Assembly (NCBI GenBank): GCA_016927855.1
Contig: JAFGLV010000037.1
Span: 62,001 to 126,000 of the forward strand
DNA length: 64,000 nt
Origin: Sedimentisphaerales bacterium
GTDB taxonomy: Bacteria > Planctomycetota > Phycisphaerae > Sedimentisphaerales > Anaerobacaceae
Direction: 5' to 3'
Positions 21,433-56,602 of this stretch are shown here, in pieces. The stretch's first letter is position 1; every line of letters begins with the position of its first letter. A model generated the notes under the pieces. It was not told the origin of the DNA. It ran no database searches and worked only from the letters and a program-made list of their open reading frames with translations. The position numbers and the translations under genes were made by a program.

Positions 21433-23037
21433 TCACTTGATCGCGAGGACCACGACGGATCTGGCCGGAACTGGCACTGTGATTCTGCCGTTGCCCGCGT
21501 TGCTAAGGCCCTCAAGTACGGCCGGCTTGACGGCCTCCGGATTCTCGAAGGTGTTGTGCGCGTTCATCCGGCTGGCGGTGAGGACGCGGCCGGAAAGCTG
21601 GCCTCGCCCGTACACCCGGCCGGATTCACCTCCAGCAATCTCGCACACCAACTCCGTGGCGCTTTGGGGGTCCAGATTGCAGATGGAAATGTGAATGGTC
21701 CCGGCCGCATCGCGTGACGCAGATGCCACCAGTGAAGCCTGCTTTCCGTCCGGCCCACAGCCCCTGCAAGTCATATCGCTCGGCAGAAGCGTGGCGCCCT
21801 GGTGGACCTTGTACATCTCGAAGACGTGATATGTAGGCGTGACGATCATCTGTGGACCCTTGGTCAGGATCATCGCCTGGAGCACGTTGTTGGTCTGCGC
21901 GATGTTGCCCATCTTGACGCGATCGCAATGCTCGTTGAAGGCGTTCAGGAAAATCCCCGCTGAGACCGCGTCACGGACGGTGTTCTGCTGATAGAGGAAG
22001 GCGGGATTCGTGCCCGGCTCGGCGTTCCACCACGTGCCCCACTCGTCGACGAAGAGGGCAATGCGGCCCTGACGGTCGTAGCGGTCCATGATTTCCTTAC
22101 TGCGTTCCAGCAGTGGGTAGATCGTCAGGGTGTTGCGCATGAGCGCGAACCATTCGTCCTCTTCGAAGTCCGTGGCGCTGCCCTTTTGCCCCGCTCCCCA
22201 GCCGCCGGAGCCGCGTACGTAGTGGTGCAGGCTGATCGCGTCCATGTACCGGCCGGCGTTCCTCAGCACGGTCTCCAGCCAGTCGTAGTCATCGCTGCTC
22301 GGACCGCAGGCGACCTTGACGATGGGATTGCCGGAGTAGCCGCGCACGTAGGTCTGGTAGGTTTTGTACAGGTCGGCGTAGTGCGCCGGCGTCATGTTCC
22401 CGCCGCAACCCCAGTTCTCGTTGCCGACGCCGAAGAACTTGACGCGCCAGGGCTCGTCCCGCCCGTTCTTTCGACGCAAGTCTGCCATCTCGCTGCTGCC
22501 GGCAAACGTCATGTACTCGACCCAGTCCTGCATTTCCTCGATCGTGCCGGACCCGACATTGCCTGCGATGTAGGCTTCGCAGCCGAGCATCTCGCACAGG
22601 TCCAGGAACTCGTGCGTCCCGAATGCGTTGGTCTCGGTGACCATGCCCCAGTGTGTGTTGACCATCTCAGGGCGCTGATCGCGCGGCCCGATACCGTCCG
22701 TCCAGTGGTACTCGTCCGCAAAGCAGCCGCCGGGCCAGCGCAAAACCGGGATGTCGAGCTTGCGCAGCGCCTCTACCACGTCGGTGCGGATGCCGCGCAC
22801 GTTGGGGATGGCCGAATCCGGCCCCACCCAAAAGCCCTCGTAGACGCAGCGGCCGAGGTGTTCGGCGAAATGCCCATAGATTTCCGGCGCAATCGTATAC
22901 CGACCCTGGTCGGCGCGGACGACCAGTCGATTGGCTGCTCCCGGCTCGGAAGTCACCGTAGTGGCCGCACCGGAAACGCCGACAACGAATATGACGATCC
23001 CCACGCATACCAGCTTCTTGAAAGTGCTCAGACGCAT
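21433..23037 (-). CDS. GH51 alpha-L-arabinofuranosidase, secreted
   Basis: Releases terminal arabinofuranose from arabinan or RG-I side chains by a retaining mechanism. A signal peptide (about 1-25) precedes a GH51-type (beta/alpha)8 barrel: [13 protein letters not shown] (100-112), acid/base Glu207 in GVGNENWG, and nucleophile Glu332 in [10 protein letters not shown] beta-sandwich tail follows. AGGAGG lies 8 nt before the ATG. At 534 aa it is a normal length plus signal peptide. It is followed (minus-strand order) by nothing on the same strand and preceded by the CE8 gene (30-nt gap), as part of the pectin enzyme run. Confidence 0.93.
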
Positions 23038-24118: not shown

Positions 24119-27100
24119 TCAACGGCCCAGCGCGACCGCCGACGTGTCTTCCACCTGCGACTGGAAAGTATAGACGCCGGAGCCGATTTCGTAAACCATG
24201 CGGTCCCCTGCCCTGCCTCGGAAGCGCACCCCTTCGCTGCGTTCGGCGGGTCGGTCGCTCTCTGTCACCGACGCGCCCGGCATGCACGGAACATACACGG
24301 TCGCAGAGGTATTGGCAGGGATCGTGACCTCCAGGGTGAACCGTCCGTCCTCACGCCGCCACTCCGAGCCAATCCTGCCACGGATCGAGTCGTAAAAGGC
24401 GGTGACCCAGCTCAGGTCCCCCACCGGCTGGGGACGGATGATAGTCCGCTTGAAACCGGGACCGTTCGGGTCGCAGGCGATCCCGGCCAGGTCGCGATAG
24501 AACCATTCGATGATTTGACCTAACATGAAGTGGTTCTGGCTCGACGAGGAGCGTGCGTTCCAGGCCTCCGTCAGGCTCGTGGCGCCGTGCTCCAACTGGT
24601 AGCCGTAGCCAGGCTTGTCCGACTGATTGTTCATCGCGAAGATGACATCGGACCGGCCCCCTTCCGCCAGCGCGCGCAGCAGATAGCGATACCCGACATC
24701 TCCTGCAGTCAGCGCGTTGCCCCGCTGACGGACATCGCCCACGACGGCATCGAGCACCGCCTGGCGGTTTGCCGGTTCGACGAGTCCCATCACAAGCGGG
24801 ATGGAGTTGGCGCATTGCGAGCCGGTGGCGTATTGTCGCGTCTCCGCGTTGAAGAACTTCAAATTGAAGGCGGTGCGGATCTTGGTCGCGAGGCGCTCGT
24901 AAGTGGTCGCGTCATCCGGCTTGTCCAACAGCGCCGCGATCTTCGCTAACACGCACGCATCGCGGTAGTAGAAAGCGGTCGCGGTCAGCGGGACCGGTGT
25001 CAGTTGCACGAAACCAGGCGGACTAGGACCGAGATCGTACCAGTCACCCAGTCCGTGCGAGACGATGTGGTCTGTTGCCTTGCTGCCGAGATAGGCAACG
25101 TAGCGTTTCATGCCTTCGTAGTGGTCGCGCAACAAGTCCTGGTCGGCTGTCCAAAGGTATTGTTGCCAAGGCATCAGCAGATAGGCGCTGCCCCAGGCTG
25201 GCGCGTCGCGGAAATCCCCATCGAACACGACGTATTCAGGCGCCGTCGCAGGGATGAGTCCATTGTCCAACTGGCAATCCGCCATGTCGTTCGCGCCTTT
25301 GGTGAACACTTGCGCCAGGTCGAACTCGTAGCGGAGCGATGGACCATTCAGGTGATATTGTTCGAGCCAGCCAAGCTTCTCACGGTGGGGACAGTCCGTC
25401 ATCACACTCATCATGTTGCTCCGCTGCGCCCAGCGAACGAGCGTGCGAATACGATTGAACAGCTCATTGGAGCAGACAAACTCGCCGACCGGCGGCGAGA
25501 TCGAGTGGACGACAACGCCTTCGAGGGCTTGAACGGTCGGGCGCTCGCCACCATCCGCGGCCGGCGTGCACTCGACCTGAAGGTAGCGACAGCCCTGATA
25601 GAAGAACTGGGGAAACCACGTCTCGCTTTCGCGCCCAGCCAGCGTGTATTGCCACCAGCCCGGCCGATTGCCCGATACCGACCGGCGATCCACCGACCCG
25701 TCACGATTGAGCAGTTCAGCGGGGATGATCCTGACAACCGAACCCGCCGGCCCGCTGACCCTCACACGCGGCATTAAGGCAGCGTTCTGGCCCAGATCGT
25801 ACACCAGCACGCCGGTACGAAGCTGTGTGACACTGACGGGAGTCAAGACGTCGAACGCTCGAATCGGCGGCGCGGCGCAGGAATGCCCTCGTAGAGCCTG
25901 CCCTGAGCCTGCCGAAGGGACGAGCGTCCTCGCTCGCCTGTCGTGCGAGGACGCACGACCTACAACCACCGCTGGCGCCCAACCCGAATCGTCGAAGCCG
26001 GGCTCGTTCCAACCTTGCGGTTCCAGGCGCGCGTCGTAGTCTTCACCGCCGAAAACGCACGAGAAAGTGACCGGACCCGGCGCTGTGCACCAACTCGTGT
26101 CTGTTCCGAACACCTCGACGGTCCCATCGGCGTATTCCAGACGTATCTGGCAAATCGCTTTGAGCGGTCCGAATGAGCCTTTGAACTTGACGTACCGTCC
26201 ACCGACGACGTTGTACATGCCGTTACCGAGCGTCAGGCCCAGCGCGTTGTTGCCCTCGCGCAGCAGAGCCGTCAGGTCGTGCGTGTCGTAAAGGCACGTC
26301 CTGTCGTACTTCGTCCAGCCCGGCGCGAGCAGATCGTCTCCCACTTTGCTGCCATTCAGCGACATCTCGTAATGCCCCAGGCCGCACACATGCGCGACAG
26401 CGCGCGTCAGTCCTGGTTTGACGATGAACTCGCGGCGTAACAACAAGGTCTGGCTCTGGCTGGCCGCACCGATCCAGCGAGCCTGCCAGTCGTCGCTGTC
26501 GACAAGCCCCATCGTCCACGAGGCGGCCTCGCTCCAAGGTGACACCTGGCTGTCTTTGTCCCAGACGCGTACCTTCCAGAAAGCCTGTTGCGACGACTTC
26601 AACGCCTGGCCGTCGTAGCGAATGTGAATCGTCTCGTCGGAGGTCACTTTGCCACTATCCCAGAGGTCGCCGCGCCCCTCGGCGAGGGTCTCAGCAGATG
26701 ATGCAACGAGAATCTGGTAGGCGGTCTGCCGCTGGTCGCGTGCCGTGGTCTCGACTTTCCAGAAAAGGCGCGGGTCGGGCACGTCTACGCCGAGCGGGTC
26801 GGAGGCGTATTCGCAGCGAAGCTCCACCGGGACAAGACCGGCACGTGCGGACCTGACGCGTTGCCGCCACTCGGCGTAATCCGCGGCCACCTCCTGACCC
26901 CAGCCGCCGTACCAGGCGTAGCCGTTGCGCCGCTCCGCTTCGATCTCCGACATCGCGTATTTCTTGACGCCGTCGCGTCCACAGAAGATCGGCTGGTTCG
27001 TACCGATCTCATAGAAGCGCGCCCAGAGCGGCGGTGCGTTTGGGTCTTCGACCACGACTCGATCGCGATTGACGCGACGCACGCGGATGCCGGTGAGCTT

Positions 27101-27862
27101 GACCGCTTCGAACCAAGCGGCGGCCGCTTCGATGGCGCGGACGACCTCGGGACTCGGATTGTCAAGCTGCATCAACAGGCGGAGAATCCCGGCGCTTTCG
27201 GCCCCGCTGAGCGAGACGAGTTCATACGTGCGTCCCGAGCGCGGCTCGTAAGTCACCTCGTCATGTTGGGCGCACCAGGCGGTCGGCTTGCCGTCGACGA
27301 CGATCTGGCATTTGAGAATGCACTGAATCCCTCCCTCGAAAGCAGCTTGGGCGGCGGCGCGGCGAGGCGCATCGACGAACTCGTACTCATCCATCCCAGC
27401 CACATCCCGCAGGAACTCCATCAGGCGGACCATCGTCCCGTCGTTGAAGGTGATGTGCCGATGATATTGCCGGCTGGGCGGATAGTATTGCGGCCAACCT
27501 CCGCTGGGATACTGGGCTTCAAGGATGTGGTCAAACCCCTTGAGGAAGGCCTGCCGGTAGCGCGCGTCCTGAGTCGCGACGAATGCGCGGGCCAGGAAAC
27601 GCCTCTCGCCTGTTGTCGCGCCATTGTCGAAAGTCCCGCTGAGACGAGCGCGATCGCCCGAGTACGGTCGAGACATGGTGCGCGTATTCTTGGGCCAACT
27701 GCCCTGATCTGACTGCCACGTGAGGATATTGTCGGCAATGCGGGTCGCTTCGGCGCTGCCATACCACTCGGTCGGTCGATTGCTGTAGCGCGCCGAGATC
27801 GGCTGCACAAGAGCCAAACCGAGACACGTCACAGTCAATAGACATCGTCGGGTCCTGCGCAT
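24119..27862 (-). CDS. PL10 pectate lyase / GH78 alpha-L-rhamnosidase fusion, secreted
   Basis: A 1,247-aa two-enzyme protein. Signal peptide 1-24. Residues about 28-335 match PL10 pectate lyases (WPKNT, TFDNGATTGERRFLARA, YPSGGWPQYYP, ITFNDGTMVRLMEFL, AWCAQHDEVTYEP, SLSGAESAGI, NGYAWYGGW), which cleave polygalacturonate. After a short linker, residues about 345-1,240 match GH78, with LFWKV N-terminal sandwich, carbohydrate-binding insert, and an (alpha/alpha)6 barrel containing MTDCPHREKLGWLEQ and GATSLTEAW. GH78 removes alpha-L-rhamnose. Residues about 635-664 are encoded by an inserted palindromic repeat (25871-25960), where GH78 normally has a surface segment. Lies in the pectin operon between CE8 and the DUF4450-type gene. 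Confidence 0.9.
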   Translation of the reverse strand: MRRTRRCLLTVTCLGLALVQPISARYSNRPTEWYGSAEATRIADNILTWQSDQGSWPKNTRTMSRPYSGDRARLSGTFDNGATTGERRFLARAFVATQDARYRQAFLKGFDHILEAQYPSGGWPQYYPPSRQYHRHITFNDGTMVRLMEFLRDVAGMDEYEFVDAPRRAAAQAAFEGGIQCILKCQIVVDGKPTAWCAQHDEVTYEPRSGRTYELVSLSGAESAGILRLLMQLDNPSPEVVRAIEAAAAWFEAVKLTGIRVRRVNRDRVVVEDPNAPPLWARFYEIGTNQPIFCGRDGVKKYAMSEIEAERRNGYAWYGGWGQEVAADYAEWRQRVRSARAGLVPVELRCEYASDPLGVDVPDPRLFWKVETTARDQRQTAYQILVASSAETLAEGRGDLWDSGKVTSDETIHIRYDGQALKSSQQAFWKVRVWDKDSQVSPWSEAASWTMGLVDSDDWQARWIGAASQSQTLLLRREFIVKPGLTRAVAHVCGLGHYEMSLNGSKVGDDLLAPGWTKYDRTCLYDTHDLTALLREGNNALGLTLGNGMYNVVGGRYVKFKGSFGPLKAICQIRLEYADGTVEVFGTDTSWCTAPGPVTFSCVFGGEDYDARLEPQGWNEPGFDDSGWAPAVVVGRASSHDRRARTLVPSAGSGQALRGHSCAAPPIRAFDVLTPVSVTQLRTGVLVYDLGQNAALMPRVRVSGPAGSVVRIIPAELLNRDGSVDRRSVSGNRPGWWQYTLAGRESETWFPQFFYQGCRYLQVECTPAADGGERPTVQALEGVVVHSISPPVGEFVCSNELFNRIRTLVRWAQRSNMMSVMTDCPHREKLGWLEQYHLNGPSLRYEFDLAQVFTKGANDMADCQLDNGLIPATAPEYVVFDGDFRDAPAWGSAYLLMPWQQYLWTADQDLLRDHYEGMKRYVAYLGSKATDHIVSHGLGDWYDLGPSPPGFVQLTPVPLTATAFYYRDACVLAKIAALLDKPDDATTYERLATKIRTAFNLKFFNAETRQYATGSQCANSIPLVMGLVEPANRQAVLDAVVGDVRQRGNALTAGDVGYRYLLRALAEGGRSDVIFAMNNQSDKPGYGYQLEHGATSLTEAWNARSSSSQNHFMLGQIIEWFYRDLAGIACDPNGPGFKRTIIRPQPVGDLSWVTAFYDSIRGRIGSEWRREDGRFTLEVTIPANTSATVYVPCMPGASVTESDRPAERSEGVRFRGRAGDRMVYEIGSGVYTFQSQVEDTSAVALGR
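25871..25960. repeat. REP-like palindromic element inserted in frame within the GH78 module
   Basis: About 90 bp with two perfect hairpins: CGAGCG/CGCTCG around TCCT (25921-25936) and GTCGTGCG/CGCACGAC around AGGA (25940-25959). A tandem GAGCCTGCC pair (about 25894-25912) lies beside them. It is read through as Arg/Ser/Gly-rich low-complexity protein with no family homology. The GAGCCTGCCGAAGGG-type core is a known dispersed motif in environmental genomes. Confidence 0.7.
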
Positions 27863-27894: not shown

Positions 27895-30800
27895 CTACCG
27901 CGCCAGCGTTGCTCCCATCAGACCGATGACGACCTCGTTGGCCAGCGTACGTACGGTGAGTGATTCAAGTTCCTTGGCGTCATCCAGCGGCAGATTGAGC
28001 ACCGTGGCAGCGCCGCCGGGGACCTCCCTGCCCTTGCCCTTGAACGTATCGACGTCCAGCACGCGTACGGTCCCGGTCTTGAGGTCCACCCGCGGCGGGA
28101 TCGGCTCAGGCCGGCTGAACGCATAGTCATCGATGAAGTAGTCCTGGTCGATGGGCCACCAGGTCGTCGGGTTGCGCAGCGCCAGTCGCTCGGTCGCACC
28201 GTCGGTGTAGGTCACGATGACTTCGCCGTTGTCAAATTGACTCTGCATCGAGTTCGTCGAGCCCGCCATCAATAGATAGACGCTGCGCGCCTTGCCTTCC
28301 AGCGGGATCGTGACGTCGTTCGGGTAGTTGTCCCACTGCGAGGTGAACACGGTGTTCTTCGCGCCGCCGACACCTGGGCTCCGGAAGGGAACGCCCTGGG
28401 GCAGGACAAACAGACCGTCGTTGCGTCCGGCCGCCGTGCGCAGGCCACTGTCATCGATCTCGACCGTCTTGGCGAAGTTGCACCAACTGCCGATCCCCTG
28501 CCTGGGAATCGCCAGCGAACAGTAAGGCGAGCGCGGCGAAAGGTACTCGTTCTTGAAGATCTGCGTAACCTTGTCGTTGAAAATCGAATCGAGAACGAGC
28601 GGGTCCCATCTGGAACCTCCGCCCGGAGTCTCGATCTTCCAGTTCGTCACCACACCTTCGACGCGCCGACCTTCCCCCAGGTCGGCAACCACGCGATTCG
28701 AGCCAGGCAAGAATCCTTCGGCCGGCAGGACCGTCTCTTCGGACAGCGCGGGCGTCTGTACGGTATTGTCGCGCACGCGGAAGCGCAGATGCTCAGCGTC
28801 CTGGGCCGGCGACGGAATGATTTCGTATGCCGGCCGCACTTCGAACGACACGGGCAGCCACCACGACATTTGTCCCTGCTGAACCTGGAGAAAAGCGGTA
28901 CGATGCCCCAATGTCCCGCGGGCAGTGGCTCGGAAGCGGCGTGGTTCGAGCGTCACCTGCGGTAGAACGCGCTGAGGATCGAAAATGAACCGAGGTGTCG
29001 CTGCTCCCAAATCGACCTCCACCTCACTTCCGCGCGCCACGACCCTACCGGGATCGGTTCGGACCGCACTCTCGCCCGTCCAGGCAATGGCTATCTCGAA
29101 CTTAGCGGCCGCCGGCGCCTGGATCGCAATACGGGGCGTGCCCACTGAATCTCCGACCGCTTGCCACTCGACCGGCGCGCCATTCAGGGTGGCGCCGGCC
29201 ACGCTGTCACGCAGCGCAGGCACCACCAGGCGCAAGGACAGCGGCCTGGCGAAGTTCGGCTCGATCACGTAGGTCTCGGTCAGGCCGTCCCGGCGAAACT
29301 TGAGGCTGAAATCGGGATGGTGAATGCTCGCGTGGTCCCAGTCGGCCGGCAAACCGGGTTGAACCGTCAACTGTCCGCTCAGCACGTCGGGATGGATGCC
29401 GAAGAGGCCCTCGACGACGGCGCGGGAGACGATACCGACCGCGTCGCCGAAATCGCGCTGGGCCTCGCCGCGTGCGGCGTCGAAGTAGGTCGTCATGCCC
29501 AGATTGCCCGGACAGAGACCTTGATACATGCTGTCGAAAATGCAGCCTTTGAAAGCCCTGAAGGCTTCGTCGGCGCGTCCGGCTTTCCAGTAGGCCAGCG
29601 AGGTGTGCGCCACTTCCGCCATCACGACGTTGTTCGTCGACCACGTGTAAGGCATCCAGTTCGTCGTCGGCAAGGTGAAGCAGCCATCCGCAACCGGGAT
29701 GTGCGCGATCTGCGTATCCACGAACCGCGTCATCTGCCAGGCCTCGAAGGGGGTCGGCACTTCGGAATCGATCGTGTGGTAGAAGGTCCAGAGCGCGGCG
29801 GCCGGATGAACCTGCTGCAACCCGAGCGGGTCCTTCCACTCGCCAAACCAGCCGTGCTCGGGCAGCCAGAGCTCACGCCGCATGGCCTTGAGGATCAACT
29901 CCGCTTCTTGCTCAAACGGCCCAGGGTCCTTACCGATCAGCTTCGCAAGGCGCGCGACCATCCTGTTATGGTAATGGTTGTAGGCACTCGCGTGCGTGAC
30001 ACCGCCGCCGTGGTACTGAAGATCGTCGCTGGCCCAGATCGCCGCGTACGCTTCGTAGAGAGGCAGCCCGTCCGATCCGAACGGCCTGCGGAACAACCGG
30101 CGCTCCCATGCCAGATGCCGTTCGATGACCGGCCACAGCTCTGTCGCCAGATCGAGGTCGCCAGTCCATAGCACGTGGCGCAACAGCATGTCGATGTAGA
30201 CCAGGTTCATGTCGTAGTGCCGTCCCGACATGTCACCGTTGCTGTGCAGCGAAGGTTCGTTGCGCGAGAGATTGGCAGTCGGATCGGCCGGCAGGATCGC
30301 ATCGGGAACGGGACGCGTGTTCTGCCGGCGGGCCCAATAGGCGAGGTGGCGTTCGGCGCGATCGTGCCAGCCGAGAGCGTCGCAGGAATAGGGACCGCGC
30401 CAGCCCAGCAGCGTGGAGCGCCACGCGACGGCGCCGTGCATGACCGCCCCCTGCGGCTCGTCCCATATCCCATCGGCCGCGACGCACAGCGCCGCCACGG
30501 CGGCATCGATGAACGGGTCCGGCGTCTCCACCGCCACCCGGCTGGCCAGCGCCGCGCGGTATTGCTCGGTCAGCTCGAAGAGACTCGATAGTTGCTCGGC
30601 CTCCAACGGCACATCGCGCCCACGACCAGGAACGAGCTGGAGCGCGAGATGCAAGGGCTGATCCTGATCCAGCGCGACGTGGCCGACGACAACCGGCGTG
30701 TCCCCCGGTTGGCCGGCCGAGGCGAGCAGCGCCGCCGGAGAGGCCCATTGCGTCGCATCGCCTACCGAGACCTGCGCGTCTGACGGCAGCACGCCGCGAA

Positions 30801-31533
30801 CGGTCCCCGGCTTGCCGCGCAGGGTGAAGGTATTGGCTTCGGCGGAAATCGTATTGTCCCGGCAATACATCGGTCTCAATTGAAAGAACCGGCTCACCGG
30901 CTCGCGCTCGCAGCCGATGTCGCCGCTGCGCGCGCCCCGATCGCCGTTCATGCCGCCATAGGCGAAGATCAACTCCGCCTGCGGTCCCGCGCCGTTGCAT
31001 TCGACGCGCACGAGCAACCCGTCGGTTGTATACATCGTGATCGCCGTGACGCGCAGGGCTGCGTCGCCGAGCAGTGGGTCGCGAATCTCGTACAGCATTG
31101 ACCCGGGACGGTAGCGCGCGATCACCTGCTGAGCATCGAAGAGCCACTTGGCGCCTTCGCTCGTCCTGAGACCGAGACGCAGGTTGCCTCCCCGGCCGGG
31201 CAGGTAGAGCGAGAACTCAGGCATGTCTCCGGCGTCAACACGGAATCCGCGGCTGCGTCCTGAAGACTCGCGCTGGCCCTCCTCGCCAACTGGCGGGGAA
31301 TCGTAGGCGTACAGCGGCCGGTTGAAGAACTCGCGGCTGTTCTCGATCACGAAGTCTTTGCCGTCGGGACGATAGCGCAAAGGACGTGCCGGCGCGCCCT
31401 CGACCGTCGGTCGAACGACTCGAATCCGTTCGGGCGGGTTGTACGGTTGCCCGCCGAACGCTCCGGTCGTCGCGAACAGAGCGAGCGCCGCCTGTAGGAT
31501 GGGCAACTGGTTGCCCACGCTGCTGGTGTGCAT
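27895..31533 (-). CDS. Large secreted glycosidase-like protein, DUF4450 / six-hairpin type
   Basis: A 1,212-aa exported protein (signal peptide about 1-27). The segment PLRYRPDGKDFVIENSREFFNRPLY near the N-terminus matches the opening of DUF4450-type proteins from pectin loci. A beta-rich N-terminal domain is followed by an (alpha/alpha) barrel-like helical region (about 350-720: HGAVAWRSTLLGWRGPYSCD, SLHSNGDMSGRHYDMNLVYID, YHGGGVTHASAYNHYHNRMV). C-terminal beta domains come after that. GGAGG lies 7 nt before the ATG. By neighbours it likely acts on rhamnogalacturonan, but the activity is not assigned; DUF4450 itself is my recollection from motif resemblance. Confidence 0.6.
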   Translation of the reverse strand: MHTSSVGNQLPILQAALALFATTGAFGGQPYNPPERIRVVRPTVEGAPARPLRYRPDGKDFVIENSREFFNRPLYAYDSPPVGEEGQRESSGRSRGFRVDAGDMPEFSLYLPGRGGNLRLGLRTSEGAKWLFDAQQVIARYRPGSMLYEIRDPLLGDAALRVTAITMYTTDGLLVRVECNGAGPQAELIFAYGGMNGDRGARSGDIGCEREPVSRFFQLRPMYCRDNTISAEANTFTLRGKPGTVRGVLPSDAQVSVGDATQWASPAALLASAGQPGDTPVVVGHVALDQDQPLHLALQLVPGRGRDVPLEAEQLSSLFELTEQYRAALASRVAVETPDPFIDAAVAALCVAADGIWDEPQGAVMHGAVAWRSTLLGWRGPYSCDALGWHDRAERHLAYWARRQNTRPVPDAILPADPTANLSRNEPSLHSNGDMSGRHYDMNLVYIDMLLRHVLWTGDLDLATELWPVIERHLAWERRLFRRPFGSDGLPLYEAYAAIWASDDLQYHGGGVTHASAYNHYHNRMVARLAKLIGKDPGPFEQEAELILKAMRRELWLPEHGWFGEWKDPLGLQQVHPAAALWTFYHTIDSEVPTPFEAWQMTRFVDTQIAHIPVADGCFTLPTTNWMPYTWSTNNVVMAEVAHTSLAYWKAGRADEAFRAFKGCIFDSMYQGLCPGNLGMTTYFDAARGEAQRDFGDAVGIVSRAVVEGLFGIHPDVLSGQLTVQPGLPADWDHASIHHPDFSLKFRRDGLTETYVIEPNFARPLSLRLVVPALRDSVAGATLNGAPVEWQAVGDSVGTPRIAIQAPAAAKFEIAIAWTGESAVRTDPGRVVARGSEVEVDLGAATPRFIFDPQRVLPQVTLEPRRFRATARGTLGHRTAFLQVQQGQMSWWLPVSFEVRPAYEIIPSPAQDAEHLRFRVRDNTVQTPALSEETVLPAEGFLPGSNRVVADLGEGRRVEGVVTNWKIETPGGGSRWDPLVLDSIFNDKVTQIFKNEYLSPRSPYCSLAIPRQGIGSWCNFAKTVEIDDSGLRTAAGRNDGLFVLPQGVPFRSPGVGGAKNTVFTSQWDNYPNDVTIPLEGKARSVYLLMAGSTNSMQSQFDNGEVIVTYTDGATERLALRNPTTWWPIDQDYFIDDYAFSRPEPIPPRVDLKTGTVRVLDVDTFKGKGREVPGGAATVLNLPLDDAKELESLTVRTLANEVVIGLMGATLAR

Positions 31534-32134: not shown

Positions 32135-34621
32135 TCAGCGCTGCCGCCGGGCGCCGCCCAATGCCTCCTTCAGCAGGAGCTTGCTGCGTGCCGATCCGAC
32201 GAAGAGCGTCTCAGGGAACGCGCGATAGTCCATTATCTCGTCGTAGATGTGCACTTCCTGGTAGGAGTTGAGCCCCATGCCGGCCATGTATTGCAGCCGC
32301 AGGTTGCGGTCGCGATTGATCTCGGCGCCCTCGAGCCACGGCGCCAGGTCGGCCCCCTGTCCGGCGTAAGTCGCAAGCAGATCGGTAATCGACTCGAACC
32401 CAACCTGGGCCAGCGAATCCGCGACGGGAAGGTGATCGGTGCGGTCCAGGCGCTCTTCCAGCGCCGCGACGTCGAGCTTCGTCGGCTGCGTCTGGCCCAG
32501 CAGGACCACATCGTAGCCTTGGCCTTCGTAGTCGTTGCTCCAGATCGTCCCGCCGGGGAAGACGTCGAAGAACGTCGCGATTTCGCTCCGCACGACGTCC
32601 ACACTGCTCTCGTACAGCGGCACCCACTGGGTGATGACGCCGCCGGGGTTGAGGTGTTCGCGGCATGTCTCGAAGTACTCCTTCGTGTACAACGTCGCGG
32701 CTCCTTTCACCCAAGGGTGAATCGGGTCGGACGTAATGACGTCGAATTTCTCCTTGGTCGTCAGGACGTAATTGCGCGCATCATCGTAGACGACCTCCAC
32801 ACGCGGGTCGCTCAACACGTCGTTGTTCTGCTCGTCGAAGTACCGCGCCACCACGCTCGGAATCAAAGGCTCAATCTCACAAATGACAATCCTCTCGACG
32901 CTGGGGTGCAGCACGAACGTCCCGGCCGTCACACCCGCGCCGCATCCGACCACGAGCACCGAGCGCGGTTTCGGGTGAAACAACGCGGAGATGTGACCGA
33001 GCATGAGCTGGAGACGCATGTCCTGCGGATCGCTCGACGCTTCGACCTTGCCGCTGACGTGGAAATTCAGGGTCCCGTCGCTCAGCTTCGTCACCGCCAC
33101 CGAAGCATTCATGCCTTCGCCGACGTACAAGGCTGTCGCGCTGTTGTCGGTATAGGTCGCCAGGTAGCGCCCATAGGCGATCAGTCCCCAGGGGACCTTC
33201 GCAACGCTCCAGGCCAAGGCGGCGACCCCACCCACCGAAACGATCGCCAGCACCGCGCAGACGGCGCGGAAGGCCAAGGACGGTGACGAGCGAGCCGGCA
33301 TATCCCCTTTTCGCCGCGTTCGGAACGATAGCGCGAACACCAGCAACGCCGCGACACCCGAAGACGCCACCAGCACGCGTTGGGCGGTCTGCGTCCCAAC
33401 CGCCGGCACGACCCACATGCTGAACGCGATGGCTCCGATGATGGCTCCCACCGTGTTGGCGGCGTACACTCCGCCGACCAGCCGGCCCGGGTCCTGGCCC
33501 GGCGACGCTGCGGAAGCCAGCGCCAGGGGAAAGCTCGCGCCCCAAAGGATGGCGGCCGGCAGCACCGCCCAGGTGCAGCGCATTAGGTCGAGTTGGAAGT
33601 TCACCCACGGACTCGTCGAGAGCGACGGATCGATGGGCCAATAAGGCAGCGAACGGGTCAGCACGTACGCGGTCCACGCGATGGCGCCGGCCAGCAGCAC
33701 CTGGCATCCGGCCAACGCCAACCGAGGCCGAGCCACACTGCCCGAGAGGACCGCGCCGACACTGCTGCCGATGCCCAAGCCGGTGAGAAACACCGCCAGA
33801 ATGATGGAGAATGCGTACACGGTCGCGCCCAGCATCAGCGACAGCAATCGTGTCCAGATGACTTCCGCGCCGAGCGCGTTCATCCCCGAAAGCGCGATAG
33901 CGACGTAGACCGTCCAGGCTCCCGCTGCGCGGACGGTCTCTCTCGGCTGAGCCGCGCTTGATGCCGGCGCGTGCGTGGTCCTTGTCGCAAGAACCAAGCC
34001 GATCAGCGCCACGGTCCCGTTGATCGCGGCCGCGACGAAGGTGGCTGTCGCCATGTCGTGGACGCGCAAGAGGTAGAACCCGGCCAGCAGGCACCCGAAA
34101 ACCGCGCCGACGATATTGCCGCCATAGAAAAAGCCCAGCCAGGAAACCCCCTGCGGCGTCGCTTCGAGCCACCGCGCGATGCCTGGCAAGGTCGCACCCA
34201 TCAGGATGGTGGGCGGCAGCAGGCAGATGCCACAGACCAGCCCGCGCAGGAGGATCGCGGTAAAACCTGACGCGACATTGGCCGTGTAAAGCCTTCCGAC
34301 GTGAGGTATCGCGAACAAGACCGCGATTCCGATGATCCCAATCCCCAGCTCCAACAGGGCATAGACGCGCAGAGGATGCCGCCGGGCCGAGATGATCCGT
34401 GGCAGCGCCAGGCTGCCCAGGCACATCCCGCCCATGTACGTGCCCAGCAGCACGCCCAGCGAGACCGCCGACGAGCCGATGACCAACTGGAGCAACTGGA
34501 ACCAGACAATTTCATAGATCAACGCCGCGCAGCCGCTGCCGACGAACAACACCAGCAGCAATGGGAGATACCGTCGCGGCGTCTGGAGGGGCGCCGCATC
34601 ACTCGATTTGTGCTCAACCAT
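32135..34621 (-). CDS. Membrane-fused spermidine synthase-like aminopropyltransferase
   Basis: The 828-aa protein has about 14 hydrophobic segments in its N-terminal half (residues about 20-500). It then has a soluble spermidine synthase-like Rossmann domain (about 560-790): SVLVVGCGAGVTAG, then ICEIEPLIP, VVYDDARNYV and VITSDPIHPW, the cofactor-binding and Asp motifs of polyamine aminopropyltransferases. The membrane-fused form is common in Gram-negatives of uncertain substrate. ATG 34708 is far upstream; ATG 34621, preceded by AGGAC, is the best start and overlaps a seven-codon upstream ORF by TGA. It sits inside the pectin region with no clear link to pectin. Confidence 0.8.
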   Translation of the reverse strand: MVEHKSSDAAPLQTPRRYLPLLLVLFVGSGCAALIYEIVWFQLLQLVIGSSAVSLGVLLGTYMGGMCLGSLALPRIISARRHPLRVYALLELGIGIIGIAVLFAIPHVGRLYTANVASGFTAILLRGLVCGICLLPPTILMGATLPGIARWLEATPQGVSWLGFFYGGNIVGAVFGCLLAGFYLLRVHDMATATFVAAAINGTVALIGLVLATRTTHAPASSAAQPRETVRAAGAWTVYVAIALSGMNALGAEVIWTRLLSLMLGATVYAFSIILAVFLTGLGIGSSVGAVLSGSVARPRLALAGCQVLLAGAIAWTAYVLTRSLPYWPIDPSLSTSPWVNFQLDLMRCTWAVLPAAILWGASFPLALASAASPGQDPGRLVGGVYAANTVGAIIGAIAFSMWVVPAVGTQTAQRVLVASSGVAALLVFALSFRTRRKGDMPARSSPSLAFRAVCAVLAIVSVGGVAALAWSVAKVPWGLIAYGRYLATYTDNSATALYVGEGMNASVAVTKLSDGTLNFHVSGKVEASSDPQDMRLQLMLGHISALFHPKPRSVLVVGCGAGVTAGTFVLHPSVERIVICEIEPLIPSVVARYFDEQNNDVLSDPRVEVVYDDARNYVLTTKEKFDVITSDPIHPWVKGAATLYTKEYFETCREHLNPGGVITQWVPLYESSVDVVRSEIATFFDVFPGGTIWSNDYEGQGYDVVLLGQTQPTKLDVAALEERLDRTDHLPVADSLAQVGFESITDLLATYAGQGADLAPWLEGAEINRDRNLRLQYMAGMGLNSYQEVHIYDEIMDYRAFPETLFVGSARSKLLLKEALGGARRQR

Positions 34622-34668
34622 TTGGTCGTCCTGACATTTGCTCCTTTTCGCGTTCGCAACCGGCGGCG

Positions 34669-34687
34669 CGTTTGTAGTGTGCCCGTA
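34669..34687. repeat. 19-bp dispersed repeat upstream of the spermidine synthase-like gene
   Basis: CGTTTGTAGTGTGCCCGTA here is identical, in inverted orientation, to the sequence at 56637-56655, some 22 kb away. Flanks keep partial similarity (GTAAGAGCATAG versus GTAGGGGCACAG). Confidence 0.7.
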
Positions 34688-34779
34688 AGAGCATAGTACG
34701 AACGGCATACCGGGAGCCCTGTGCTTTCAGGGCAAGTGTGTGCGTCCGGCGAGGAGTTACAGGTCTGCGGCGCGCGACG

Positions 34780-34815
34780 AAAAATTGTTTTTGACGACCC
34801 ACCAGGCGCGTCGTC
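34780..34815 (-). terminator. Possible intrinsic terminator of the GH2-discoidin gene
   Basis: On the minus strand GACGAC (34815-34810) pairs with GTCGTC (34798-34793), overlapping the stop codon, followed by AAAAACAATTTTT. The T-tract is displaced by 8 nt, so efficiency is uncertain. Confidence 0.35.
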
Positions 34816-37800
34816 AGTCGCTATCGGGGCCCTCGATCTCCTCGGTCGCCGTGCGGACGTTTCGATAAGGTGTCGTGCCGCTTGTGATCTGCGCCCCGGT
34901 GGCGCCAAAGATGGCCAGTTCCGCCAGCGCGCAGCTCCGATCGGGTCCGAAGCCCGACAGGGCGCGCAGCCTCAAGTGTTGGGCCGTGACCGCCGCGCCA
35001 AAGCGGACCCGCTGGGGCTCGAACGTCGACTCCAGCTCGCCTTCGCAGACCTGGCGCCACTGCGAGCCGTCGTCGCTCACGTCGATAGCATACGCGCGGA
35101 TGTCGCCCAGGTGCTGGCGCTGATTCTGCCGGTTCATGCAGATAATCCCAGTCATGGAAACCGGCTGGGGAAAGCTGATGGTCAGTTCGTAGGGATGGGC
35201 GCCGCCTCGTTCGCCTGCCGTCCAGGCCGTGTTGGGATTTCCGTCGATGGCATTGCGTGCCGAGCCGCCGCCGGAGGTCGCGGCGCCGAGGTGGGCCATG
35301 AGCTGGTTGTCGAACAGGACGCCGCGGACCTGTTCCGGCGTAACCTCAACCGCCGGGTTGAAGCGCTCCCCTGCCATATACGCCAGCAGGCTGCGACGCA
35401 ATTGCCGCGCGACCGGCCGGCTGTCAAGGTCGGCTTCCAGGTCAGCGGAACAGACCATCAGTTTGCCTGCGCCGACGCGGCATTCGAACACCAGGCCCAG
35501 CTTGTAGTTGCGGTTCCAGTCGTCGATCACCTGCACGATAGGATGCAGCGCGCGCGGCAACGAATCCAGATTCACCGCGCGGCACGCCGGCTGGATCACG
35601 TCCTGCCACTGCCAGTCGTAATGCTCGTCGGTCGCGAAATGGGCCAGAGCGGGATGGTTCGGATCGACCAGCAGTCCGAGAAACCGGTCCCAGCCCGGGC
35701 CCATCAGACGGTTCCAGAAGATCGGCAGGCGACCGATAGGCGGACTCTCCCAGCCCAAATCGTTGTAGAGCGGCAAGAACAACACCTTGCCGCCCTCCGA
35801 CAGCCGGCTCTCCGCTTCCGCAAACGAGCGAGTCACCAACACGTCGGTTGGCGTCCCGCTCGGTGGCGCCGCCGGATAGACCCAGAATTCCCAGTCGTTC
35901 TCGACCGTCTCCAATCCTTTGAGCCCGACCACGAGCCGGTATTTCTGCGGCGCTTCGAACGTCCCTAGGCTCAGCGACAGTTCATGGACGGGAATCGCGG
36001 TGCCAAGGGGGATGTCCATCGTCGCCAGTTCGGCTGCGATTACCGCCTTACCCTTCGGGTCCACGATCTTCAATGTCGGGACGACGCCCGAGAGAGGGGC
36101 TTGGCCGAAGTGGGCCATCTCGATCTTGACCGTCAGCGTCTCGTCCGCGGTGTAGAGGTATTTGTCCATCCGCGCCAGCGGGACGGTCTCGCTGCAGAAC
36201 CGCCGGAACTGCTCCGGCGTGACATACCCCTTCGACTCCCAGAAGACATTCAGCGGACCGACCACCGCGGTGCCCTGGCCGGGATAGTCGTGCAGGTCGA
36301 GCAACTGGAAGCCGCCCATCCCCGGTGTGCGCAGCAGCGCTTCGATTTCCTGCTTGTAGCATTCGACCTGGAACTTGCCGCTGGCTCGCGTGAAGTCGGC
36401 CGCCTGGTCCAGCATGCCGTGCTCAGCGAGCGATTCTCGGAAAATCTCGTAGTTCTTCGGTTTGAGCGAGCCGGTGTACTTGTCCATGTCCGCAAAGCTT
36501 GGATAGGCGCACCACTGGCCGGTCTCGTGCGAGATGACGGGGTAATTCGTGCCTTCGAGAGAGCGCCGCCAGTCGCCGCCGTGCCAGGCACGGTCGCCGC
36601 GGAATCGATACGAGCCGATCCGAATCGCGACGAGGTAGTCGATGTCATCGACGGGACCGGGCCGATTGCCGTAGAAGCGCCCCGTCTGGCTGGCGTAGAT
36701 GCGGCGGTTGTCCTTCTGCTTCCATTCGCGCAGCCAGGGCGTGAGTATCTCTTGCCACGGTCCGGCCGGCTCGTTGCCAGACGAGAGCATCACGAACGAC
36801 GGGTGATTGCCGTACGCCTTGACGATGCGCTCCGTCTCGCGATACAGAAAATCCTCCATCGTGTCGTCGCGCGACGAATATTGTCCCCAGTTCGAGCACT
36901 CGGGCTGGAGGTAGACCCCCAGCTCGTCCGCGGCGGTGAAGGCTGCCTCCGGTGGGCACCACGAATGGAAGCGCACGTGGTTGAGTCCGTAGTCCTTGAC
37001 CACGCGGAAGACCTTGCGCCACGACTCAATGTCCGTCGGCGGATAACCCGTCAAAGGGAACGCACAGCCTTCATGGGTACCGCGAAAGAAGGTCTTGCGA
37101 CCGTTGACATAGAAGGTCGCGTCCTCGCTTTTGATCTCCCGCAGACCGACCGTGAACTCGCGCCGATCATCGGCGTCCTGGCCCGTCAATCTCAGCGTCA
37201 TGCGGTACAAGGCCGGGTCGAATTCATCCCATAGCCTGGCCTCGTCGCCCAGCGGTACCTCCAGTTCAGCGGTTCCACCGTCACTACCCCATTCCACCGG
37301 CACGCTTGCGCCGCCGGCCGCCAGCGTTCCCTTGCCTGGCCGGCCTGTAGCATTGCCCAGGTCAACTGCGATCTGCACGGTTTTGCGCGCGATGTCACTA
37401 TAGACGCGCGCATCTTCGATCCAGACCGGCGTCGTGGACGTCAGTGCCAGAAGCCCGACCAGCCCATGCCAGTTGGATTGGGTTGAGTCCGTGATTGCGT
37501 GTGCGTCTTCGCGGATATTGACCAGGTAGCGATTGTCCACGCGCACGCTGAGTGTGTAGTCACCCGGTTCGAGAATGCCAAGGTCGTAGACGTGCGGTGC
37601 GCCGAGACTGTCGTTGAAACCCATCTGCCGGTCGTCCAGCCACACTGCCGTGGACCAGTGCGCCCGCTCGAACGAAACGACGGCGCGCCGGCTGCACCAG
37701 CTTTCGGGAATCGTGATCCGTCGCTGATACCACGCTACGCCCGTGTACTTGCGTTCGGGCTGGAGCCAGAACGGCACCTTGACGTTGTTGGGCTCGGTGT

Positions 37801-38101
37801 ACTTCTTGTAGTCCTTCCGCAGGTACCAGTAGTGATCGTGCAGGCGGCTCATCCACTCGGTCTGTGCGGTTGTCGGGTCGCCGTAGCCATTGTCACGCAG
37901 CGTCCCAGGCAGTTGAATGGGAGCGGACAGCGTCTGAGTGAACCATTCTTCGTCCACGCCGACGTCGTTCGGATCGAGCGTTACGCGCCACGTTCCGGCC
38001 AGGCTGACCTCGAATACCTCCGGAGTCTGACCACTCGCTGGTATAACGTACGACAGAAGTGCACCAAGACAGACGGTAAGGATGCTGCGTCTGCGTTGCA
38101 T
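34814..38101 (-). CDS. Secreted GH2-type glycoside hydrolase with C-terminal discoidin-like domain
   Basis: The 1,095-aa exported protein has a signal peptide about 1-25. A sugar-binding jelly-roll follows (about 30-240, VAWYQRRITIPESW), then an immunoglobulin-like domain and a TIM barrel. The barrel has GTHEGCAFPL, NHVRFHSWCPP, acid/base Glu444 in SSGNEP and likely nucleophile Glu526 in SHETGQW. Residues about 940-1,075 look like an F5/8 type C (discoidin) carbohydrate-binding domain (ARNAIDGNPNTAWTAG). Substrate unresolved; relatives remove beta-linked galactose or glucuronic acid from pectins. The 38101 ATG follows GAGGAGGAGG; the 38197 start is rejected because it overlaps the next gene. 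Confidence 0.8.
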   Translation of the reverse strand: MQRRRSILTVCLGALLSYVIPASGQTPEVFEVSLAGTWRVTLDPNDVGVDEEWFTQTLSAPIQLPGTLRDNGYGDPTTAQTEWMSRLHDHYWYLRKDYKKYTEPNNVKVPFWLQPERKYTGVAWYQRRITIPESWCSRRAVVSFERAHWSTAVWLDDRQMGFNDSLGAPHVYDLGILEPGDYTLSVRVDNRYLVNIREDAHAITDSTQSNWHGLVGLLALTSTTPVWIEDARVYSDIARKTVQIAVDLGNATGRPGKGTLAAGGASVPVEWGSDGGTAELEVPLGDEARLWDEFDPALYRMTLRLTGQDADDRREFTVGLREIKSEDATFYVNGRKTFFRGTHEGCAFPLTGYPPTDIESWRKVFRVVKDYGLNHVRFHSWCPPEAAFTAADELGVYLQPECSNWGQYSSRDDTMEDFLYRETERIVKAYGNHPSFVMLSSGNEPAGPWQEILTPWLREWKQKDNRRIYASQTGRFYGNRPGPVDDIDYLVAIRIGSYRFRGDRAWHGGDWRRSLEGTNYPVISHETGQWCAYPSFADMDKYTGSLKPKNYEIFRESLAEHGMLDQAADFTRASGKFQVECYKQEIEALLRTPGMGGFQLLDLHDYPGQGTAVVGPLNVFWESKGYVTPEQFRRFCSETVPLARMDKYLYTADETLTVKIEMAHFGQAPLSGVVPTLKIVDPKGKAVIAAELATMDIPLGTAIPVHELSLSLGTFEAPQKYRLVVGLKGLETVENDWEFWVYPAAPPSGTPTDVLVTRSFAEAESRLSEGGKVLFLPLYNDLGWESPPIGRLPIFWNRLMGPGWDRFLGLLVDPNHPALAHFATDEHYDWQWQDVIQPACRAVNLDSLPRALHPIVQVIDDWNRNYKLGLVFECRVGAGKLMVCSADLEADLDSRPVARQLRRSLLAYMAGERFNPAVEVTPEQVRGVLFDNQLMAHLGAATSGGGSARNAIDGNPNTAWTAGERGGAHPYELTISFPQPVSMTGIICMNRQNQRQHLGDIRAYAIDVSDDGSQWRQVCEGELESTFEPQRVRFGAAVTAQHLRLRALSGFGPDRSCALAELAIFGATGAQITSGTTPYRNVRTATEEIEGPDSD

Positions 38102-38121
38102 GAGCCACCTCCTCCTCGCGG

Positions 38122-41100
38122 TTAAGGCTGTATCCGGAGACTGGCCGGACCCAGGATGCCCGACGGCTCCGAACGTGCGCTGCCGCGCGTGCCCCACACG
38201 TCCCAGGCAAATCGGTTCGCGATCGAATTAGACACGACCAGGGCGAGTTGGTTCTCGCCTCGCTTCACATAGTCGGTAATATCGAGCTCGTAGGGCGGCC
38301 AGAGCAAGGTATCCACGAGCTTGGCGTTGACGTAGACCTCGACATAGTGCTGGACGTTCCCGAGATCGAGCCAGACCTTCCCGCCCGCCGGGTCAAGTTG
38401 TACGGTCTTCTTGTAGAGCACTCGCCCACTGTAGTAGCCAAAGCCAAGGTCGGTCCACGACGTCAGGCTCTCTATCCGGGCGGGCCCGCACACAACCGAT
38501 AGCGGCTGTTCGACCCCGGCCGCGGTGTCATGAGCGAAGGTCTCGATGGCCAACACGTTGCCCCACGAATCGGACGAGACAGGCAGCTCCAGCCTCCCGG
38601 CTCCCCCACTTAGCGGCCCCAGGCTCTTTTGCCGCAGACTTTCGTTGAGCCACAACGCGTATTCTCCCGACACCGGCAGCGGCGTCTCTATGGCCTTGGC
38701 GCCCGGCGGAAGCGTGGCGCGCAGCAGAACAGACGCATCTTCCGTGAAAAGACCGTTGCCGCGCAGCGCGTGGACTTGCCTCCAGCGACGGTCGCTGTAG
38801 TCCCGATCCGTCCAGCCGTCGACAGCTTCGTACGGTCCGCGTGTCCTCGCGCGAAAAACAGGTAGCTGTACCTTCGTGTCGCCAAGCGAGCACTGCCACG
38901 CGTCGTCCAGATCCGAGCCGGCCAGTTGCATCTGCCAGTCAGCCGAAATATCCACCCTCCGGCCTTCCGGGCGAGCGCACGTCCATGTGGACAGATCGGA
39001 CTGATCCTCACCGAAAACTGCAAACATGGACTGGTGGGGCCGAAGCTCTATCGCCAGTCCAGATGCATCGACCGTTCCCCGGTAGGCCCGGCCGGTATCC
39101 ATATCAAGCAGGACGGGGCTATCCCCACTGCCGAGCTTGGCTCGGCCGGCAACGTAATCGTCGGAGTCGTTGAAGAGGAGAAAGACGTCTGCCTTCGCGG
39201 CGCGCCGGTGGGTCACGCGCAACGAGTCGAGCCCTGGTGAGACCGCCACCTCGGCTCCGAGCCGGTCGTCGAGGCATTTGCACACGGCCTCAGCGCTCCC
39301 CTCCAACAGCGTGAGCCGGCCATTGCCAACAGCCACAGTCTGTCCCAATTCGAGCTCGGGTGCGCCGAACCAGTCGCGCAGCGTCACCTGGGGTTCGCTC
39401 TCACTGGGTGGCCACGTCAGTCGAGGCATGCGCTCCAGCCAGATGACCCGGCCGCCGGCCCGCAGGAACCGGTCTATCGCCTTGAGGCTCTGCAAACCGA
39501 TGGCCGTCACAGGCGGAACGATGAGAACGCGAAACTGCTCGGGACCGATGCACAGGCTCGTGACTTCCCCGTCCGTCTTCACGGAGCTGTCCGCCAGGAA
39601 CCCGTCATCGACGATATCCATGTCCCAGCGATGCTCGAAGAGCCGGTCCACCAGTGTGTTGAAAACGCGACACGTGCGGCTCGCATCGGAGTTGCCTACC
39701 GTCCGGTGCTGCCAAGGCAACACGTTCTGCCCCTTGCCTCCGACAGAGTCGGCCCAGAGCGACTCGACGGGGTAGTACACCGCGCACGGAGCCACATGCG
39801 TGCCGTAGGAGTTGAAACAGGTCAGCCTCGCGCTCAGGTCGGCGATCTTCTTGTAGTACTTCCAGTAGGGATTGTCCTGGAAGAAGGAAGGCGGGCATTC
39901 GACCCGCGGATTGTCGACCGTCTGGAAGAACGCGTGCGGCACGAAGCGGCGCGTGCCCAGCGCGCCCAGGACGCTGTAGCCGGTGCGCAGCGTGTCAAGC
40001 GTGCAGTTCCAGCCCCCCGCCAATCCCAGACACTCGCACAGCGCGTCCTTGTCCTGCAGGTGCGCCACCGAGATCGCGGCTTTGGCCATCGAAGGCCGGC
40101 AGCGCGTCCCTAGCGCGTCGAAGCCGGGCTTGTCCATCAGCCGCAGAATGGTCATCAGTTGAGCCGAGTGTGCATAGGACTCGATGTTCTCCTCGTAGAT
40201 GTGTCCGGTGAAACCGAGACCATGCGCACCACACCAGGAGGCAATCGTGCCCATCGAGCCGTCCGCAAAGAGATCGGTAACTGTCTGCCAGTAGGCCAGC
40301 CGGACCTTGGCGGCCTCGTCGGAGTTTGGATCGAGCAGGCAAGGCAACTTGTCGAGGATGTCTACGCCGCACCGTGCCTTGCACTCCTCGGCCAGGCGCG
40401 GCGTCCAGGCAAAGGGAGCAGGCGCCATGGTACTGGTCTCGTCGCTGAAGACGGCCGGGATGGTCTCGCCGAAGTCGTCACCGAACCGCTTGAAGTACTG
40501 CTCGTGCGTAAGCGAAAGGAAGCGCTCAGACGGCTCCCGCGCCAGGTAGTCGATGAAAGAGCCGCTGCCCGGGTCCAGGATGCTCGGGTTGCGCCCGAGA
40601 CATTGGAAGAACACGAGCACATCACACGGTCCGGCCGGCAGCGGGCCCGAGAGAGCCGCCCCGTCGCCTGAGACCGCACCCCAAGGCCGATACGAGGCCG
40701 TAGGATCGTCATGGGGTTTGATGAATCCACCCACGATCTTCTCGAACTGCCCAAGGCGATGGTCCGTCGGCGCGGGTCTTTCCACCGTGGCTTGCCGTGG
40801 CCCGTCATTGAACTCGTAGACGTGATAGTCCAGTCCGCGCGGATACCACTCAGGGTGACCGTCGGTGACGCGTCCGGCCGCCCCGCCGCTGGGCCAGTTA
40901 TACTCGTCGTAGAGCCAGATCTGCATACCGAGCTTTCTGGCTTCGTCAATCGTCGCGCTCATGGCCTGCCAATACGGCTCTTCCAAGTATTGTCGCCGAT
41001 CCATGCCGAAGCGCGGATGAGGCATCGCCGCATAGACGCCCTTCTCGGCCATCTCGCGCAACTGCTGGCGGAACTGGTCAGGCTCCAGCGGACCATTCCA

Positions 41101-41280
41101 GAACCAGAAGGGGATTTGCGTGCACGCGCGCGGCGGTTCCTTCAACATTCCCACGATTTCGGTGGCCGCTCGCTCGTCCACAGCGGCACCGGAGGTTTGA
41201 GGTGCGAGCGTCGCAGAGCACAACATCAAGAGCACGTACCGGTATTTCATCGTTTTTGACTTCACTGCTGTTCGTCTCAT
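38122..41280 (-). CDS. GH106-like alpha-L-rhamnosidase-type secreted hydrolase
   Basis: The 1,052-aa exported protein resembles GH106 in layout. It has PPRACTQIPFWFWNG near the N-terminus, a barrel with LREMAEKGVYAAMPHPRFGMD, IWLYDEYNWPSGGAAG and AVFSDETSTM, then a GATase-like region (RVLIVPPVT) and C-terminal beta-sandwich motifs (WLDLGNVQHYVEVYVN, LVVSNSIANRFAW). GH106 enzymes cleave alpha-L-rhamnose, but this branch may have another substrate. The start is uncertain: the 41280 ATG gives a basic n-region; 41250 is also possible, and 41298 is TTG. It is the leftward gene bordering the divergent promoter region. Confidence 0.72.
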   Translation of the reverse strand: MRRTAVKSKTMKYRYVLLMLCSATLAPQTSGAAVDERAATEIVGMLKEPPRACTQIPFWFWNGPLEPDQFRQQLREMAEKGVYAAMPHPRFGMDRRQYLEEPYWQAMSATIDEARKLGMQIWLYDEYNWPSGGAAGRVTDGHPEWYPRGLDYHVYEFNDGPRQATVERPAPTDHRLGQFEKIVGGFIKPHDDPTASYRPWGAVSGDGAALSGPLPAGPCDVLVFFQCLGRNPSILDPGSGSFIDYLAREPSERFLSLTHEQYFKRFGDDFGETIPAVFSDETSTMAPAPFAWTPRLAEECKARCGVDILDKLPCLLDPNSDEAAKVRLAYWQTVTDLFADGSMGTIASWCGAHGLGFTGHIYEENIESYAHSAQLMTILRLMDKPGFDALGTRCRPSMAKAAISVAHLQDKDALCECLGLAGGWNCTLDTLRTGYSVLGALGTRRFVPHAFFQTVDNPRVECPPSFFQDNPYWKYYKKIADLSARLTCFNSYGTHVAPCAVYYPVESLWADSVGGKGQNVLPWQHRTVGNSDASRTCRVFNTLVDRLFEHRWDMDIVDDGFLADSSVKTDGEVTSLCIGPEQFRVLIVPPVTAIGLQSLKAIDRFLRAGGRVIWLERMPRLTWPPSESEPQVTLRDWFGAPELELGQTVAVGNGRLTLLEGSAEAVCKCLDDRLGAEVAVSPGLDSLRVTHRRAAKADVFLLFNDSDDYVAGRAKLGSGDSPVLLDMDTGRAYRGTVDASGLAIELRPHQSMFAVFGEDQSDLSTWTCARPEGRRVDISADWQMQLAGSDLDDAWQCSLGDTKVQLPVFRARTRGPYEAVDGWTDRDYSDRRWRQVHALRGNGLFTEDASVLLRATLPPGAKAIETPLPVSGEYALWLNESLRQKSLGPLSGGAGRLELPVSSDSWGNVLAIETFAHDTAAGVEQPLSVVCGPARIESLTSWTDLGFGYYSGRVLYKKTVQLDPAGGKVWLDLGNVQHYVEVYVNAKLVDTLLWPPYELDITDYVKRGENQLALVVSNSIANRFAWDVWGTRGSARSEPSGILGPASLRIQP

Positions 41281-41558
41281 GGTTGGTCTTTCAGTCAAAT
41301 TCGATGCGCGTGTCGTCGAAGCGTAGTCTAATGACGTTCAGACACGACATCAACGGCAAAACGCCTACACACGGTCCGTTCTACGCGTCGGCCCGGGAAG
41401 CTGGTAGCCGAACGCCGGAGAAAATGACGTCACAACCGCTAAAGCCGCCGCCTGTGTCTGCCGATGCGCGCGAAAGCATTTGTGCGCGGCCGGCGACGTT
41501 TGTCGGCCGAGCCGCTGTCCCAGGAAGCCACGGTATCGACGTCTTATGAGGTGAACAG

Positions 41559-43526: not shown

Positions 43527-43690
43527 CCCCTGCCTGCCGCCGACGATCCGTTGCGGGCTAAAGGCGCGGCGCTCTTACGTCGATAGCGAGCATGGCGTCA
43601 CAGGCCGACAGCGGCCGTACCGGGCATGTCGCGGCCTTCTCCGTCGCGGCGCTCGCAGACGTGCTATATCAAGAAGCAGAAGGTGAACGA

Positions 43691-51366: not shown

Positions 51367-51507
51367 GCTTCGTCCCCCGAAGAGACACAATGGCCACGAT
51401 TTTCCGCGCGACCGTCGGCAGCCCTCTTCTCTCGCACCGCCGACGCTCAGCGACCCCCATCATGCCACAATCGCAGCCGTTTGTCGAGGGGTTAACCAAA
51501 AGCGCCG

Positions 51508-56566: not shown

Positions 56567-56602
56567 GTCATCCATCCCCTGATTCAACGAACACATCGGT
56601 TT

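Follow-up and report, generated by a model that had tools for sequence, protein, structure and literature searches.

Domain architecture of the fused gene

The window, a stretch of 64,000 nucleotides from a Sedimentisphaerales bacterium, contains a fused PL10-GH78 gene at 24119-27862 on the minus strand. It is a single open reading frame of 1,247 aa with no internal stop, and its coordinates, strand, residue limits and open frame were as first described. Residues 1-24 (27791-27862, minus strand; MRRTRRCLLTVTCLGLALVQPISA) form a probable Sec signal peptide. The original prediction spoke of one exported chain; the one frame was confirmed, and export is probable, the signal peptide having been judged by eye only.

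We compared the protein with Pfam, NCBIfam and PDB sequences. Residues 50-325 (26888-27715, minus strand) matched the PL10 pectate lyase profile PF09492 over positions 1-291 of 292 (E = 6.6e-102; 341 bits, cut-off 22), and the pectate lyase equivalog TIGR02474 of NCBIfam was also above its cut-off. Five GH78 Pfam domains, at 70-326 bits each and all above cut-off, tile residues 345-1201 on the same strand: an Ig-like N-terminal domain (PF25788, residues 345-454, 26501-26830), the GH78 N domain (PF08531, residues 486-637, 25952-26407), a concanavalin-like domain (PF05592, residues 680-786, 25505-25825), the six-hairpin catalytic domain (PF17389, residues 792-1124, 24491-25489) and the C-terminal domain (PF17390, residues 1127-1201, 24260-24484). 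Two NCBIfam rhamnosidase equivalogs were below their cut-offs for this half. Chance is no factor in domain matches at such scores. Known structures were placed likewise, with the PL10 structures 1r76 and 1gxm aligning to residues 27-335 and the GH78 structures 6i60, 3w5m and 6gsz to residues 344-1234. Two AlphaFold models were made, the first used for the PL10 part alone and the second built from an alignment without PL10-only rows; the PL10 part matched the 1gxo fold (TM by target 0.84) and the GH78 part the 6i60 fold (0.89). The assignment of the N-terminal half to PL10 and of the C-terminal half to GH78 was thus upheld by profile search, by structure alignment and by predicted fold.

The junction lies at residues 336-344 (26831-26857, minus strand; about 9-12 aa), as judged by comparison with unfused relatives. 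It falls where the PL10 of these relatives ends and where the signal peptide of unfused GH78s sits.

Within the GH78 half, an extra in-frame stretch (25865-25939, minus strand) contains PSAGSGQALRG, is missing from the homologous fusion described below and is predicted with low confidence. Its DNA, CCTTCGGCAGGCTCAGGGCAGGC, resembles a short mobile repeat translated as protein. It occurs as a single copy in the window, and its 15-base core was found in no retrieved locus other than copies of the PL10-GH78 gene.

Catalytic residues and motifs

At the level of sequence, the known catalytic residues are retained in both halves. In the PL10 domain, D79 corresponds to the Ca-ligand Asp that is substituted in structure 1gxo, and the same alignment pairs R211 with the catalytic Arg524 of Cellvibrio Pel10A; the Ca-ligand and catalytic roles of the two positions are presumed to be those of Pel10A. 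The GH78 half has the proposed acid (E828), the proposed base (E1099) and the Asp of the TDC motif (D823), and both Glu are invariant in an alignment of 18 rows.

The surrounding motifs differ from those of most GH78s. The clade to which this domain belongs carries TDCPHREKLGWLEQ and GATSLTEAW, whereas most other GH78s compared carry TDCPQRDERLGWTGD and GATTIWERW; in nearly all of the clade, WLEQ replaces WTGD and LTEAW replaces IWERW. The WTGD-type Asp of SaRha78A, which we did not treat as family-defining, is replaced by Q835. As this canonical Asp is missing, the activity and specificity of the GH78 half are extrapolated, and the change of motifs could alter specificity.

The join is genuine

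To the prediction that two enzymes are fused, the obvious objection is an assembly join between separate genes, and the source genome is indeed a draft of 180 contigs that is 87% complete. However, the join is in frame, at a domain border and inside a long contig, and the two halves have nearly the same composition (GC 0.630 and 0.625, GC3 0.759 and 0.758 for PL10 and GH78, respectively). Moreover, G419, an independent genome from a different genus within the family, encodes a PL10-GH78 fusion of 1,233 aa (locus L103, 4280-7981) in the same order and frame, with all six domains, 68.6% (PL10) and 68.4% (GH78) identical to the window protein. It is preceded by a GH2 gene and followed by a GH51 gene, 71% and 75% identical to window genes. 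On the second fusion and the matching GC and GC3 we discarded an assembly join, the probability of which we consider negligible.

Gene neighborhood

The fused gene belongs to a same-strand run of CE8, GH51, DUF4450, GH2 and GH106-like genes. The next gene encodes a CE8 pectin methylesterase (PF01095; 23068-24114, minus strand) and is followed by a GH51 alpha-L-arabinofuranosidase (21433-23037, minus strand), the gene that adjoins the fusion in G419. On the other side, the preceding gene encodes a large DUF4450 protein of 1,212 aa (27895-31533, minus strand; Pfam). Profile matches identified a GH2 related to the exo-beta-1,4-galactosidase BT4151 (34814-38197, minus strand), whose counterpart immediately precedes the fusion in G419, and a GH106-related, BT4145-like protein (38122-41298, minus strand). 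Beyond this run, the locus gene scan found two TonB-dependent receptors divergent from the enzymes (41559-45646, plus strand), two GH106 alpha-L-rhamnosidases (45665-48541 and 54431-56596, minus strand), a GH28-like pectinase (51732-53258, minus strand) and a further GH2. This is a pectin utilisation locus of RG-I character; the gene scan turned up no RG-II hallmark family.

Some features of the region are worth recording in their own right. A fused MFS/spermidine-synthase-like gene (32135-34708, minus strand) sits amid the pectin enzymes, and a 943-aa open reading frame without a Pfam match (48559-51390, minus strand) lies between two GH106-type genes and possibly represents an undescribed enzyme family. 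An Opitutaceae locus (L051) also contains a DUF4450 homologue, close to a GH78 that shares its wider clade with the fused GH78.

Rarity of the fusion and other partners of PL10

We searched with the PL10 profile in 89 genomes of the window's family, 148 of its order, 130 of its class and 392 of its phylum. The search also covered the three phyla to which an Opitutaceae genome (309 genomes), a Bacteroidetes genome (316) and a Terriglobia genome (199) belong; some sets partly overlap, and together they comprise about 1,460 genomes. The PL10-GH78 fusion was found only in the window genome and G419, a count from which contig ends may hide more. None of the other long PL10 frames that were opened (in G475, G505, G517, G541, G548, G753, G821 and G871) contained GH78; these had other partners or none recognised. 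A candidate in G320 was rejected as unfused, its PL10 frame being 370 aa. A possible third fusion was considered in G277, where a GH78 (51%) begins at a contig edge, and that genome has no PL10 match. Viral contigs yielded nothing, and no place in plasmids covered 80% of the query. Our literature search found no publication naming a PL10-GH78 pairing, in agreement with the view that such a fusion is little described.

PL10 was joined to a variety of other domains. In a sister genome, a PL11-PL10 fusion (L104, 2597-5305) combines an RG-I lyase with a homogalacturonan lyase. Elsewhere, PL10 was found with CE8 and an alpha/beta hydrolase (L107, 2027-5500), with an FGE-sulfatase and DUF6807 (L106, 2269-5025), with a Sde182 nucleoside-hydrolase-like domain (L119, 4016-6418), with CBM6 (L124) and with CE8 (L130). 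With so many fusion partners, PL10 is a promiscuous module. Because PL10-GH78 is one among several such partner swaps, it varies a known theme only modestly: the join is genuine and rare, present in two related genera, and its novelty is of an ordinary kind.

Relatives and origin of the fusion

In G505, PL10 and GH78 are adjacent separate genes, 65-66% identical to the fused parts. The PL10 gene stops soon past its last conserved motif, and after a short spacer the GH78 gene begins with its own lipoprotein-type signal peptide. Four close relatives (G434, G475, G477 and G519) have PL10 without this GH78, and we found no ortholog of it elsewhere in their genomes, where the best full-length matches were 43-44% identical and G477 gave fragments only; the pairing is therefore not essential. 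In G434, PL10 follows GH2 and precedes GH51, from which its stop is only about 40 bases away, and GH78 is absent there.

The two fused PL10 domains form no clade (AU test p = 0.005 when forced into one), which suggests two separate fusion events, as far as these trees can tell. The junctions of the two fusions also differ in length and sequence. When the two fused GH78 domains were forced into one clade, p-AU was 0.061; as their monophyly is not rejected, a single fusion with several later losses is possible. In the simplest reading, a PL10-GH78 gene pair probably fused twice, at the PL10 end and just past the lost signal peptide; each event would have removed the stop of PL10, the short stretch between the two genes and the signal peptide of GH78. 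Outside the family, the GH78s most similar to the fused one come from Acidobacteriota MAGs and are up to 67% identical, which suggests that this GH78 was transferred between phyla.

Proposed function and alternative explanations

We propose, with a probability of roughly 0.7, that the gene encodes an exported pectinase of two activities, formed from fused neighbor genes of a pectin/RG-I locus, probably in two fusions, and benefiting from proximity. It is most likely a working bifunctional pectinase acting on neighboring parts of pectin. From family knowledge, the N-terminal PL10 would cut unesterified homogalacturonan by Ca-dependent beta-elimination, with the adjacent CE8 esterase presumably unmasking this substrate. 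The C-terminal GH78 would act by inversion, releasing terminal alpha-L-rhamnose from RG-I close by or from other fragments of pectin, and may work beside the GH106, GH2, GH51 and GH28 enzymes.

The original prediction held that one chain would couple cleavage of the backbone with that of its side groups. Such coupling is hypothetical: the PL10 substrate, unesterified homogalacturonan, does not carry rhamnose as a side group. Rhamnose belongs to the backbone in RG-I, and RG-II alone bears it on side chains of a galacturonan backbone. As rhamnose is no side group of homogalacturonan, the PL10 and GH78 sites more likely act on neighboring pectin blocks, and the fusion would help by exporting both enzymes together and keeping them close on the same wall particle, not by obligate coupling on one chain. 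Strict coupling fits RG-II alone, for only there do galacturonan side chains carry rhamnose.

An RG-II-specific enzyme, whose PL10 cuts the galacturonan backbone while its GH78 strips side-chain rhamnose from the same molecule, would make sense of that arrangement, and BT_1019 of B. theta has an RG-II context. BT_1019 is a characterised GH78 (PMC6828813). The enzymes at the present locus, however, are of RG-I type (BT4145-like GH106, BT4151-like GH2, GH51) and the scanned genes lack an RG-II hallmark, so that we consider an RG-II enzyme improbable. We are equally doubtful that the GH78 half acts on another deoxysugar or linkage, and not as an alpha-L-rhamnosidase on pectin. The nearly clade-wide replacement of WTGD and IWERW and the sub-threshold rhamnosidase equivalogs would fit another substrate, whereas the five Pfam domains above cut-off and the retained acid and base Glu argue against one.

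A neutral origin deserves appreciable weight, though it falls short of even odds: a small deletion may have joined two secreted enzymes that are functionally uncoupled and possibly cleaved apart after export. The unfused adjacent pair in G505, the many unrelated partners of PL10 and the unlike linkers of the two fusions are all as this would predict; yet two genera carry this unusual pair as a fusion, which probably arose twice, and both domains are still intact. At the other extreme, at least two fusions could reflect synergy from tethering at homogalacturonan/RG-I borders or in RG-II, which would make the protein a new intramolecular debranching lyase; this we think rather unlikely. If synergy were true, PL10-GH78 would be a ready-made pectin-debranching tool. 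With PL10-GH78, the known multi-catalytic pectinases gain a pairing that seems not to have been described. One bacterial family offers a natural series of separate genes, a fused gene, PL10 alone and PL10 with other partners, in which one could measure directly what the tethering of two activities on pectin is worth.

Comparison with known systems

The PL10 half shares its full-length domain, fold, ligand Asp and catalytic Arg with Pel10A of Cellvibrio (1gxm/1gxo) and the Azospirillum irakense PL10 (1r76), but these matched chains, unlike the window protein, have no GH78 partner. Likewise, DtRha (6i60) and SaRha78A (3w5m) have the same GH78 domain architecture, fold and acid and base Glu as the fusion, which differs from them in having PL10 in place of a signal peptide and WLEQ/LTEAW instead of WTGD/IWERW-type motifs. 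A survey of Planctomycetota reported that multi-modular CAZymes make up 10% on average in Sedimentisphaerales, with the most unique module combinations; the main text of that survey does not name a multi-modular case of PL10 or GH78 (PMC11131199). The CE15-GH106 fusion OtCE15C also joins a rhamnosidase-type domain to another wall enzyme, although the families differ on both sides (PMC10807430). The PL10-CE8 fusions of Bacteroidota (L130) likewise place PL10 and a second pectin enzyme on one chain; there the coupling is direct, because the CE8 esterase prepares the substrate of PL10, and in this they differ from PL10-GH78.
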